A stretch of 5,262 nt of DNA from the NCBI GenBank assembly GCA_028868395.1, contig JAGWUO010000104.1, forward strand, positions 1 through 5,262, in the 5' to 3' direction. This document shows positions 2,508 to 5,262 of this stretch, piece after piece. Under the pieces are notes generated by a model. The model had not been told where the DNA came from. It saw only the letters and a program-made list of their open reading frames with translations, and did no database searches. A program made the position numbers and the translations under genes. The stretch is from Cytophagales bacterium. Lineage in GTDB: Bacteria > Bacteroidota > Bacteroidia > Cytophagales > Spirosomataceae. The stretch's first letter is position 1. Each line of letters starts with the position of its first letter.

Positions 2508-3860
2508 TTAGTATTGATCGTTTAAAGCAAAAATAGGTTGATTTTTTTTCCATTTACCGCGGGTGAAATCAGGTATTTGAATAGGAGCGGAGCCCTTTTT
2601 AATGGACTCCTCAGAAAGGGGTGCAATAGCTGACCAAGCCGCCGCATCATACACATCAATCGGTGGAGCTACTTTCGCCTTGATTGCCTCGATAAAGGCT
2701 CTTAAAACGAAATAATCAATACCTCCATGGCCCGCATTTTCCGCATCAGCGGCATGCGCTTTCCATAAAGGGTGATCGTATTTTTCTAGATAAGGTTTCG
2801 CGTCTTCCCAGCGGTGTGCTTTAGGAGATACTCCTTCTAAATAAATCGATTTATTATCCTCCATCCATAATCCTTTTGTTCCTTGAACTCGGAAACCTAA
2901 GGAATAAGGTCGTGGTGAATTCGTATCATGCGTAATGAGAATCGTTTCTCCATTGACACATTTGATCATGGTTTGGACGATGTCACCGCATTTGAAATTG
3001 ACTTTCGCGTTTGGATGATCAGCTCCTCCTTTTTCAACAATATAATTATGTAGTCCCAAAGAGGGCGTTGCCATCGACGTTAAATAGGCGAATTGATTTC
3101 CACGGTTAATATTCAACATCTCAGCCACCGGCCCTAAACCGTGTGTTGGATACAAATCTCCATTGCGGTCGACAGAATGCTGGGTGCGCCATTTGGCCTC
3201 AGAAAAACCTTTCTCCCCAAACTCCACACCGCCGCCATAAGCTTGCTTTCCATCATTGAATTTCACTTCACGCAAATCATGCTGATAACCACATTGTACA
3301 TGATTTAAAGTACCGAACATCCCCTGGCGAACCATATTTAACGTGGCCAACACATCACGGCGGTAACACACATTCTCCAAAATCATGCAATGAGAACCCG
3401 TTTTCTCGAACATATTCACCAGATCCCACGATTCTTTCAAGGTTACGGTAGCGGAAACTTCCACACCCGCGTATTTACCTTGTTTCATCACTTCCAAGGC
3501 CATGGGAACGTGCCATTCCCAAGGAGTAGCAATGACCACACCATCGATGTCAGAACGCTTGGCTAAGTTTTCAAAATCTTTTTCTGTTTTACCAAAGACT
3601 GCAGGAGCGGGGCGTCCTTTGTCGGAAACCATCTTTAAAGCGATGTCAATGGCTTTAGGATCGATATCACAAATAGCTACCACCTCAACATCTGGTCGAT
3701 ACATGGCCATTTCGAGGTGATTTTGGCCTCTTAATCCAACGCCAATAAAACCTAAACGCACTTTTGTTTGTTCTTCAGGTAACTGTCGTAGGAAAGTGGG
3801 GAATAAAGCGGTACCAGAGGTATATACTAAGGAATCGGAAATAAACTTCCTTCTTTTCAT
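2508..3860 (-). CDS. GH109-type NAD-dependent glycosidase (alpha-N-acetylgalactosaminidase-like), twin-arginine signal
   Basis: This 450-residue member of the Gfo/Idh/MocA fold closely resembles the glycoside hydrolase family 109 alpha-N-acetylgalactosaminidase of Elizabethkingia, which hydrolyses the glycosidic bond by an NAD+-dependent oxidation/elimination cycle. The N-terminus KRRKFI is a twin-arginine motif, implying folded export with bound NAD. The Rossmann motif GFIGVGLRG is at 37-45. The usual dehydrogenase EKP lysine motif is replaced by GVEVS (132-136), as in GH109. Further hallmarks are PWEWH (113-117), ENVCYRRD (162-169), GYQHD (191-195), YPTHG (237-241), RPYSLGF (317-323) and AGHGGIDYF (376-384). 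E162, Y192, H194, H240 and Y319 match the reported catalytic or binding residues at a constant offset of 12-13 (numbering from memory). I chose the ATG at 3860, not the one at 3956, because it puts the twin-arginine motif at the N-terminus and avoids overlapping the divergent gene. The exact sugar specificity is unproven. Confidence 0.9.
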   Translation of the reverse strand: MKRRKFISDSLVYTSGTALFPTFLRQLPEEQTKVRLGFIGVGLRGQNHLEMAMYRPDVEVVAICDIDPKAIDIALKMVSDKGRPAPAVFGKTEKDFENLAKRSDIDGVVIATPWEWHVPMALEVMKQGKYAGVEVSATVTLKESWDLVNMFEKTGSHCMILENVCYRRDVLATLNMVRQGMFGTLNHVQCGYQHDLREVKFNDGKQAYGGGVEFGEKGFSEAKWRTQHSVDRNGDLYPTHGLGPVAEMLNINRGNQFAYLTSMATPSLGLHNYIVEKGGADHPNAKVNFKCGDIVQTMIKCVNGETILITHDTNSPRPYSLGFRVQGTKGLWMEDNKSIYLEGVSPKAHRWEDAKPYLEKYDHPLWKAHAADAENAGHGGIDYFVLRAFIEAIKAKVAPPIDVYDAAAWSAIAPLSEESIKKGSAPIQIPDFTRGKWKKNQPIFALNDQY

Positions 3861-3940
3861 TTTGTTAATGATAGGTCTAATAGGTGTTATAAAGATGAAA
3901 TTTAAGGAAAATACTTTAAATTTATAAGAATTTAGAAAAA
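3861..3940. promoter_or_regulatory. Divergent intergenic region holding both promoters
   Basis: This 80-bp, strongly AT-rich spacer separates the start codons of the GH109 gene (leftward) and the PTPS gene (rightward), so promoters for both sets should lie here or just inside the genes. Near matches to the Bacteroidota -7 box TAnnTTTG are TAAATTTA on the plus strand (3917-3924) and TAAATTTC on the minus strand (3897-3904), each differing only in the last base. Neither has a clear TTTG at -33. No GGAGG-like ribosome site precedes either start; A-rich runs do, as is usual in the phylum. Confidence 0.5.
3898..3923. repeat. Short AT-only inverted repeat between divergent starts
   Basis: AAATTTAA (3898-3905) and TTAAATTT (3916-3923) are perfect 8-bp inverted arms around a 10-bp centre. 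The arms coincide with the two candidate -7 boxes pointing in opposite directions. The repeat could be an operator for a dimeric regulator or simply the mirrored promoter elements. Arms made only of A and T in an AT-rich spacer are weak evidence. Confidence 0.3.
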
Positions 3941-4363
3941 ATGACTGAAGCTCCACGCGTTACTGTATTCCGAAAAGAACATTTCAATGCTGCACATCGT
4001 TTGCATAATCCACTTTGGACAGCTGAGAAAAACAAAGAAATTTTCGGTTTATGTAACAATCCGAACTACCATGGACATAATTATGAAATTATTATTCAGG
4101 TAACCGGAACAATTGACCCAGAAACGGGTTATGTCATTGATACGAAGTTTTTATCGGATTTAGCGCAGACTGAGGTTTGCAAAAAATTTGATCACAAGAA
4201 TTTAAATTTAGACGTCCCTGAGTTCGCTGATTTAAATCCTACTGCTGAAAACATCGTCATGGTGATATTTAACAAACTGAGGGCTAAACTCCCTTCTAAA
4301 TTAGATTTAAAAATCAGATTGTATGAAACAGAAAGAAATTTCGTTGAATTCCCTGCTAATTGA
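3941..4363 (+). CDS. 6-pyruvoyl-tetrahydropterin synthase homologue (QueD/PTPS superfamily), mammalian-type active site
   Basis: This 140-residue cytosolic enzyme belongs to the COG0720 family, which acts on dihydroneopterin triphosphate, the product of the next gene. Zinc ligands are H19 (in FNAAHR) and H44 and H46 (in HGHNY). The catalytic cysteine is C38 in CNNPNYHGH, with five residues between C and HGH. The Asp-His pair is D84-H85 in FDHKNLNLDVP. T101-E103 (TAEN) and E129 (YETE) fit pterin-binding positions. The C-x5-HGH spacing and the CNNPN and DHKNLxLDVP blocks resemble animal PTPS; classical QueD for queuosine has C-x3-HGH. Removal of the triphosphate to give 6-pyruvoyl-tetrahydropterin is thus the favoured reaction, with 6-carboxy-tetrahydropterin synthase activity as the alternative. 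The ATG follows an A-rich run, and the length is normal for the family. It leads a rightward operon with folE and an SDR gene. Confidence 0.92.
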   Translation: MTEAPRVTVFRKEHFNAAHRLHNPLWTAEKNKEIFGLCNNPNYHGHNYEIIIQVTGTIDPETGYVIDTKFLSDLAQTEVCKKFDHKNLNLDVPEFADLNPTAENIVMVIFNKLRAKLPSKLDLKIRLYETERNFVEFPAN

Positions 4364-5024
4364 TACCGACCGTTTCTTGTTAACTGACGAGGAAATTGGA
4401 GATAATCATGTAGCCACCTCTATCGAAACACCGATGAGGGAGGATGCTTTTGATCTTTCTGATTCGGAGAAAATAGCCATTATTGAATCTCATTTCCGTG
4501 AAATCATGTTAACCTTAGGGTTAGATTTAACCGACGATTCTTTACGAGGCACTCCTAAAAGAGTGGCTAAAATGTACGTAGAGGAAATATTTAGCGGTTT
4601 GAATCCAGCTAATGAGCCTAAAGTTGCCTTGTTTGAAAATAAATACGGCTATAATGAGATGTTGATTGAAAAGAATATTTCATTCTATTCTAATTGCGAG
4701 CATCATTTTGTACCTATCATGGGTAAGACGCACATTGCGTATATCTCTTCTGGACAAGTCATTGGCCTTTCGAAATTAAATCGAATAGTTCAGTATTATG
4801 CCAAAAGACCCCAAGTTCAAGAGCGCCTAACAATGCAAATTGCAAAGCATCTTCAAAGAGTTTTGAAAACAGATCATGTTGCCGTATTTATTGATGCAAA
4901 ACACTTGTGCGTCTCTTCTAGAGGGGTAAAAGACGAGGCAACTTCTACGATTACGTCCTATTATGGAGGTAAATTCCAAGAAGAAAATACAAGAAGAGAA
5001 TTCTTACAATCTATTCAAGCCTAA
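4323..5024 (+). CDS. folE: GTP cyclohydrolase I FolE
   Basis: It converts GTP to 7,8-dihydroneopterin triphosphate, the entry step to folate, biopterin and deazapurine compounds, as a cytosolic homodecamer. The protein has 233 residues. Zinc ligands are C125 and H128 (in SNCEHHF) and C196 (in KHLCVSSRG); H127 and H194 match the catalytic histidines of the E. coli enzyme. GTP-binding and family blocks include SLRGTPKRVAKM (73-84), GLSKLNRIV (148-156), RRPQVQERLT-like KRPQVQERLT (161-170) and SRGVKDE (199-205). The segment GDNHVATSIETPMREDAF (26-43) is a conserved Bacteroidota N-terminal block, so the ATG at 4434 (M38) is too late. The ATG at 4323 is the only upstream ATG and gives a 41-bp overlap with the PTPS gene in another frame; a TTG start at 4377 without overlap cannot be excluded. 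Strong coupling with PTPS supports a shared pterin pathway. Confidence 0.97.
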   Translation: MKQKEISLNSLLIDTDRFLLTDEEIGDNHVATSIETPMREDAFDLSDSEKIAIIESHFREIMLTLGLDLTDDSLRGTPKRVAKMYVEEIFSGLNPANEPKVALFENKYGYNEMLIEKNISFYSNCEHHFVPIMGKTHIAYISSGQVIGLSKLNRIVQYYAKRPQVQERLTMQIAKHLQRVLKTDHVAVFIDAKHLCVSSRGVKDEATSTITSYYGGKFQEENTRREFLQSIQA

Positions 5025-5027
5025 ATC

Positions 5028-5262
5028 ATGGGAAAATATGTTATTGTTGGGGCTAGCCAAGGAATTGGGGAGTCCATTGCTACTACTTTGCTTTCTGCTG
5101 GCCATGAAGTGATTAACTTCTCTAGAAATCCATCTTCTATTGCGGGTGTAGTAAATTTCACATGGGATGCGCTGGAAACGGATGATGCTGCTTTAGCAGC
5201 AATGACTGGACCTGTAGACGGAATCGCTTATTGCCCAGGAAGTATAAATTTGAAGCCTTTTC
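5028..5262 (+). CDS. Short-chain dehydrogenase/reductase (SDR), N-terminal part, possible pterin reductase
   Basis: The gene opens at the ATG 3 bp after the folE stop and is cut by the right edge; 78 codons are visible. The start MGKYVIVGASQGIGESIA holds the SDR cofactor motif G8-x3-G12-x-G14 after the first beta strand. The second strand ends in INFSRN (29-34); R33 is compatible with NADPH preference. W45-D46 lies near the usual adenine-contact Asp. The fourth strand ends GIAYCPGS (65-72), so the common NNAG motif is replaced by YCPGS. The Ser-Tyr-Lys catalytic residues would lie beyond the edge. Placement after PTPS and folE suggests a sepiapterin-reductase-like step that reduces the 6-pyruvoyl side chain, but this rests on context. 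A dihydropterin reductase role (FolM-like) or an unrelated SDR are alternatives. Confidence 0.85.
   Translation, partial: MGKYVIVGASQGIGESIATTLLSAGHEVINFSRNPSSIAGVVNFTWDALETDDAALAAMTGPVDGIAYCPGSINLKPF

Follow-up and report, generated by a model that had tools for sequence, protein, structure and literature searches.

An overlapping ptps-folE gene pair followed by an atypical short-chain dehydrogenase gene in relatives of freshwater Aquirufa

Results

Gene layout and samples

We analysed a stretch of 5,262 nucleotides (hereafter the window) from a Cytophagales bacterium (assembly GCA_028868395.1, contig JAGWUO010000104.1), which ends in three consecutive plus-strand genes encoding a 6-pyruvoyl-tetrahydropterin synthase (PTPS), GTP cyclohydrolase I (FolE) and a short-chain dehydrogenase/reductase (SDR). 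The list of open reading frames (ORFs) and Pfam confirmed the layout given in a preliminary description of this DNA, with a 41-bp overlap between ptps and folE and a 3-bp gap between folE and the SDR gene (Table 1). The window is related to freshwater Aquirufa: over its length, DNA identity is 90% with a Cytophagaceae metagenome-assembled genome (MAG; locus L001), whereas Aquirufa antheringensis (L005) reaches 86%. Three samples were compared: the best 80 of 580 loci ranked by FolE similarity (L001-L080); nine Aquirufa-type genomes (G001-G009, the genomes of L001, L002, L004, L005, L008, L010, L012, L016 and L018) together with 11 other relatives; and a wider set of 296 Bacteroidota genomes. 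Genome-wide statements concern relatives of the window bacterium, several of which are MAGs and may be incomplete.

Table 1 Features in and directly before the three-gene locus of the window
Feature	Position	Strand	Evidence
PTPS gene, predicted 6-pyruvoyl-tetrahydropterin synthase of PTPS-II (CxxxxxHGH) type, 140 aa	3941..4363	+	Pfam, PDB, motif
FolE gene, GTP cyclohydrolase I, 233 aa	4323..5024	+	NCBIfam, PDB
ptps-folE overlap, 41 bp, folE ATG formed from PTPS codons TAT-GAA	4323..4363	+	Overlap of 38-47 bp and ATG in 69/69 pairs
SDR gene, 5' third, 78 of ~232 codons, open at window end	5028..5262	+	Complete in L001 and L005
Divergent intergenic region before the operon	3861..3940	.	Gfo/Idh CDS start in relatives

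The ptps-folE pair

The first gene product matches Pfam PTPS (1.9e-31), and its nearest PDB sequences are rat (127 bits) and human (118 bits) PTPS, compared to at most 38 bits for chains of 6-carboxytetrahydropterin synthase (QueD). It shares 57 of 130 aligned residues with rat PTPS, and a gapless alignment places the functional His, Cys, Asp-His and Glu residues of PTPS at the same positions; the second Thr of the rat TTEN stretch is replaced by Ala. The motif CNNPNYHGH, present in the window protein and its close relatives, fits the PTPS-II signature CxxxxxHGH as given in a published classification (PMC5041015). Neither of the NCBIfam models for PTPS/QueD, TIGR00039 and TIGR03367, scores the protein above its cut-off. 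Taken as a predicted activity, the window PTPS is of the biopterin type (PTPS-II). FolE exceeded both NCBIfam equivalog cut-offs (NF006824, 283.9 bits against 202; TIGR00063, 234.8 against 181.6) and matched Pfam GTP_cyclohydroI at 4.7e-64, and its best PDB match is a GTP cyclohydrolase I (218 bits), presumably the E. coli enzyme.

PTPS lies directly upstream of folE in 69 of the 80 loci, and the other 11 have no PTPS match. All 69 pairs share an overlap of 38-47 bp, with the folE ATG placed inside the Tyr-Glu codons of PTPS (TAT-GAA, within a YE[TS] motif), a degree of conservation that rules out a chance overlap. The Tyr codon of the overlap is TAT in 69/69 pairs, compared to 256 of 380 for the remaining Tyr codons of these genes, a comparison among related rather than independent sequences. 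Selection therefore seems to maintain the folE start codon, and translational coupling of the pair is very likely. The proposal that FolE and a biopterin-type PTPS form one coupled unit is thus backed by the PTPS-II motif, the likeness to the rat enzyme and the conserved overlap. The full three-gene order, whose conservation across Bacteroidota had also been put forward for checking, is not general there and occurs in 17/80 loci; the ptps-folE pair is much more widespread and, with its overlap shared by 69 of the 80 loci, old. Of the 296 Bacteroidota genomes, 293 have PTPS, mostly in two copies, and 283 have FolE. In one MAG (L075, 4635-5035) the folE-coupled PTPS matches as two pieces in different frames, so that it may contain a frameshift or an assembly error.

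Eight of the nine Aquirufa-type genomes encode two PTPS copies (G006 has one), and the second copy of A. antheringensis scores 92 bits against animal PTPS and 23 bits against QueD. The copy number bears on whether the window PTPS could be QueD of the queuosine pathway. The QueD model does match the window protein (62.4 bits, under its cut-off of 89.25), and QueC matches were found in 19 of the 20 relatives, many barely above the Pfam cut-off of 22 bits. All of these QueC matches have low scores or little coverage (19.6-28 bits, at most 121 of 210 positions), and none is convincing in the nine Aquirufa-type genomes (19.6-22.7 bits, ~60-120 of 210 positions). Four that we inspected appear to be other proteins, which we take to be MnmA (G004), argininosuccinate synthase (G015 and G016) and a sugar-amidotransferase-like protein (G012). 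The window protein also lies outside the QueD (PTPS-I) group by motif, having Cx5HGH instead of CxxxHGH, as it does by the equivalog cut-off. Since most of these genomes have two PTPS and QueC matches are only short and weak, a QueD role is very improbable, and the situation named in advance as counting against a biopterin-type pathway, a PTPS that is the only QueD of a genome with QueC, was not what we found in these relatives.

Other PTPS copies occur in the same sample. In 21/80 loci (for example L028 3784, L035 4136 and L074 4077) a second PTPS with the motif CANENWHGH lies upstream of ptps-folE; this motif fits both PTPS-II (Cx5HGH) and PTPS-III (ExxHGH), so motif rules alone cannot sort the copies. 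A QueD-like CxxxHGH copy stands beside the PTPS-II type in Pinibacter (L081) and Emticicia (L082) and, by reading of the stretch, in Sediminibacterium (L151); QueC matches are weak or absent in all three despite this copy.

The same genomes bear on folate synthesis. A single FolE was found in 9/9 Aquirufa-type genomes, so the second folE that had been proposed as a check did not appear, and a FolE dedicated to biopterin was rejected, as the six trio genomes counted in the wider set (G004, G096, G131, G214, G269 and G293) have one folE each. The single FolE, like the near-universal presence of PTPS and FolE in Bacteroidota, would fit a pair that is simply the housekeeping FolE locus, with PTPS diverting or bypassing the FolB step and folate as the only product. 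FolB was nevertheless found in 8/9 Aquirufa-type genomes, and PTPS is therefore not needed as a folate bypass; its motif is moreover that of PTPS-II, a Cys with Pro, not the Glu of PTPS-III. We consider a role in folate synthesis alone quite improbable.

The third gene

The SDR gene is cut off by the window end and was completed from L001 and L005 to a protein of 232 aa. The stub matches Pfam adh_short at 7.9e-06 (25.9 bits, slightly under the cut-off of 26.6) and the full-length relative in L005 at 2.1e-30. Seventeen of the 80 loci (L001-L016 and L018) have the SDR gene directly after folE; by record they are three Aquirufa, one Sandaracinomonas, ten Cytophagaceae MAGs and three MAGs titled Spirosoma fluviale. 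In L019, L020 and L024 the gene is found farther downstream, and in L069 it is upstream of folE on the opposite strand. No SDR match was found in the remaining 59/80 loci, some of which are short contigs.

The Tyr position of the YxxxK motif is Ile in 120/120 close homologues (the window's own residue lies past the window end). Among 47 aligned Bacteroidota members of the family it is Ile in 25, Val in 21 and Thr in 1, and Ser120, His131 and Lys138 (His-x6-Lys) are invariant in 47/47. Relatives on proteobacterial plasmids (Mesorhizobium, 44% identity; Methylobacterium, 42%; Caballeronia, 38%; Legionella lytica, 36%) likewise lack the Tyr and keep His and Lys in 4/4 cases, although Ser120 is not kept in Caballeronia and Legionella lytica. 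Because the Tyr is replaced, the Ser-Tyr-Lys triad that had been proposed as a check on this gene is missing in the homologues, and the SDR, as judged in these relatives, falls outside what is usually defined as a sepiapterin reductase. The nearest relatives of the complete protein in NCBIfam, Pfam and PDB are FabG-like dehydrogenases. A structure model has a Rossmann fold (mean pLDDT 81), and the first 50 Foldseek hits are FabG-type and similar dehydrogenases; the stretch 122-130 has a pLDDT under 50, too low to place His131. The family is thus like classical FabG-type SDRs in fold and sequence, and differs from them in having Ile or Val for the YxxxK Tyr and an invariant His at Lys minus 7. 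This His stands where FabI (Tyr-x6-Lys) has its catalytic Tyr, and the SDR may therefore use a proton donor other than Tyr.

In the preliminary description the three genes were read as a minimal operon for the whole biopterin pathway: the SDR would be the sepiapterin reductase, and the product would serve, for example, an aromatic amino acid hydroxylase or occur as a pterin glycoside. The direct adjacency of all three genes, the PTPS-II motif and the conserved PTPS residues agree with that reading, as does pterin-4a-carbinolamine dehydratase (PCD, PF01329), found in 6/9 Aquirufa-type genomes and 10/11 other relatives. In the same direction, the SDR stub has its best NCBIfam match, over 36 residues, in (S)-benzoin forming benzil reductase, a weak one (28.5 bits, cut-off 258) to a group that we assume to be sepiapterin-reductase-like. 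None of the top 25 NCBIfam families (of 220) is named sepiapterin reductase, nor is any of the top 60 PDB sequences (of 674 and 726). No aromatic amino acid hydroxylase (PF00351) was found in the nine Aquirufa-type genomes, while 6/11 other relatives have one. Compared to the tetrahydrobiopterin pathway of animals, cyanobacteria and Chlorobium, the locus is alike in its FolE, its PTPS with animal-type residues and PTPS-II motif and the SDR that follows, and unlike in that the SDR of the relatives is Tyr-less and FabG-like and the hydroxylase is missing. Together with the pairing of this SDR with folE elsewhere without PTPS (see below), these differences leave a standard sepiapterin reductase unsupported and a full biopterin operon improbable. 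PCD and the hydroxylase are also seen apart in single genomes: six of the Aquirufa-type genomes (G001-G006) have PCD and no hydroxylase was found in them.

Genomic context of the SDR family

The SDR family occurs in 57 of the 296 Bacteroidota genomes, with one match each (profile A1, E ≤ 1e-60). Neighbourhoods of ~13 kb were taken for 40 of these genomes, and genes within 6 ORFs of the SDR were counted as near. Photolyase-family genes (two clusters named by Pfam and cluster 30 by eye) are near the SDR in 19/40 neighbourhoods, FolE in 9/40 (directly adjacent in 7) and PTPS in 5/40. Other neighbours are DUF2805/TIGR03643 proteins (10/40), flavin reductases (8/40) and a protein without Pfam or NCBIfam match that we label SRPBCC-like (10/40).

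Four of the nine FolE loci (G158, G246, G077 and G088) have FolE near the SDR without PTPS within 6 ORFs, and by coordinates a folE match also lies ~230 bp from the SDR match in G162 and G238. All six genomes carry two folE, as do many other genomes of the set. Pairing with folE where no PTPS lies within 6 ORFs argues that the SDR could act on something other than the product of PTPS. On a 54-row SDR tree, the minimum number of changes was 9 for FolE adjacency, 10 for FolE nearness, 11 for photolyase nearness and 4 for PTPS nearness; these are parsimony minima without a shuffled control, and kinship was handled only by such counts. Chance expectations based on assumed averages (3700 genes, 1.5 folE and 3 photolyases per genome) were not used as proof.

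FeS-type cryptochromes and (6-4) photolyases (PhrB, CryB; PF04244), proteins different from the SDR, are recurrent genomic partners of its family. A PF04244 gene is present in 41/57 genomes with the SDR and 59/239 without it (Fisher p = 5e-11, uncorrected for kinship), and the two genes are less than 20 kb apart in 12 of these 41 genomes and less than 5 kb apart in 9. Among the Aquirufa-type genomes, photolyase PF03441 occurs in 9/9 and PF04244 in 8/9. In A. antheringensis, a photolyase island (L250, 7090-11341) holds a TIGR03643 protein, a 358-aa photolyase-like protein that matches the FAD-binding domain only, an FeS-type photolyase and a longer photolyase; its PF04244 protein is close to PhrB and CryB of solved structure.

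The family has 30 matches on plasmids, five of which were inspected (the Methylobacterium record is unannotated). The order is MerR-folE-SDR in Caballeronia and SDR-PF04244 in Legionella lytica, and in Mesorhizobium the SDR gene lies between rpoE-chrR and a PF04244 gene.

Upstream of the locus, the ORF caller had prolonged a GH109-type Gfo/Idh gene (window 2508-3956) to a GTG at 3956, into PTPS. Relatives begin this gene at an ATG (MKRRKF...) corresponding to window 3860 on the minus strand, and it therefore does not overlap PTPS. A scan of 3700-5262 gave four sigma-70-like promoter sites and one terminator site, compared to 4.5 and 1.1 in shuffled sequences. PADLOC returned no anti-phage defence match for the PTPS, FolE and SDR proteins.

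Discussion

We tentatively favour a reading in which the locus is a tetrahydropterin/folate operon joined by an atypical SDR from a light-response gene set, the SDR probably acting on a pterin. The coupled ptps-folE pair would make 7,8-dihydroneopterin triphosphate and then 6-pyruvoyl-tetrahydropterin, and would supply folate as well, since its folE is the sole one seen in Aquirufa-type relatives. An SDR of a distinct family, without the catalytic Tyr but with Ser/Thr and Lys kept and His at Lys minus 7, would have been added as the third gene. It may catalyse the reduction or isomerisation of a pterin without Tyr as the acid and contribute in this way to a function related to light or photo-oxidation. 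We would not count it as a classical sepiapterin reductase that supplies an aromatic amino acid hydroxylase.

A pterin-acting, light-linked SDR is favoured on account of the ties of the family to photolyases and folE, the likeness of these ties to published light and singlet-oxygen regulons and the proposals made for cyanopterin. In Pseudomonas, phrB, an SDR, ufaM, cryB and folE-folM-folX are light-inducible genes under LitR/PplR (PMC9758184), so that an SDR, photolyase/CryB and folE are tied to one light response, as may be the case here; the window locus differs in including PTPS and in having no MerR-type gene seen beside the trio. The ChrR-sigmaE singlet-oxygen regulon of Rhodobacter contains the SDR RSP_1087, phrA and folE2 (PMC7074977), and thus again brings together an SDR, a photolyase and a FolE-type enzyme; the Mesorhizobium family member near rpoE-chrR recalls this arrangement. 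The likeness is at the level of gene sets. For cyanobacteria, proposals have been made that cyanopterin serves a cryptochrome as chromophore and that a tetrahydrobiopterin-like pterin acts in phototaxis (PMC3546692).

The main rival holds that the SDR is unrelated to pterins and is a photo-oxidative stress enzyme acting on a lipid, aldehyde or quinone, which stands behind folE because both are needed under light stress. Proximity of the family to photolyases, flavin reductase and TetR and MarR regulators would fit such an enzyme, and so would the gene set of the cyclopropane/furan fatty acid type near the SDR in Mesorhizobium and Legionella lytica. Against it, nearness to FolE has been gained or lost repeatedly, with at least 9-10 changes, and in four loci the SDR has folE as a neighbour without PTPS, each time in a genome with two folE, though many other genomes also have two. 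The SDR RSP1087 of R. sphaeroides, a possible counterpart from a comparable regulon, is dispensable for furan fatty acids (PMC7380195). On balance we regard a pterin-independent stress enzyme as unlikely, if the least unlikely of the alternatives.

Several points weigh against a light-linked pterin SDR. Photolyase-family genes are missing from 21/40 neighbourhoods, and 9/40 hold none of the counted markers. The association with PF04244 was tested without correction for kinship, 16/57 SDR-bearing genomes lack PF04244, as Sandaracinomonas does, and the PF04244 gene of A. antheringensis is on a different contig from the trio. On a plasmid of Spirosoma oryzicola, the annotation shows neither a pterin gene nor a photolyase gene up to 8 kb from the SDR gene (L222, 7983-8684). 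The weak benzil reductase match of the stub points in another direction. Gene adjacency need not imply a common substrate, and the chemistry and product that we propose for the operon are drawn from sequence and context.

A bolder version, which we hold to be doubtful, is that the Tyr-less His-x6-Lys SDRs of Bacteroidota and Proteobacteria are a new pterin enzyme serving FeS-type cryptochromes and photolyases, joined in Aquirufa to the only PTPS-FolE unit in a pathway unlike those of biopterin and folate. The SDR would then make a tetrahydropterin, or keep it reduced, for use as an antenna, electron donor or photoprotectant. Antennas named in the literature for FeS-type photolyases include a ribityllumazine (PMC4619345) and a deazariboflavin (PMC9178010), neither of which is a known product of this operon.

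PTPS and FolE are near-universal in the sampled Bacteroidota, and yet our literature search found little on the non-folate pterins made there (only work on the gut microbiome and ferroptosis) and nothing on biopterin in Aquirufa. The SDR family offers a concrete handle on this gap, as it lacks the expected catalytic Tyr and is tied by its neighbourhoods to folE and to light-dependent DNA repair. If the SDR works on a pterin, pterin synthesis would be linked to bacterial cryptochromes outside the cyanobacteria.

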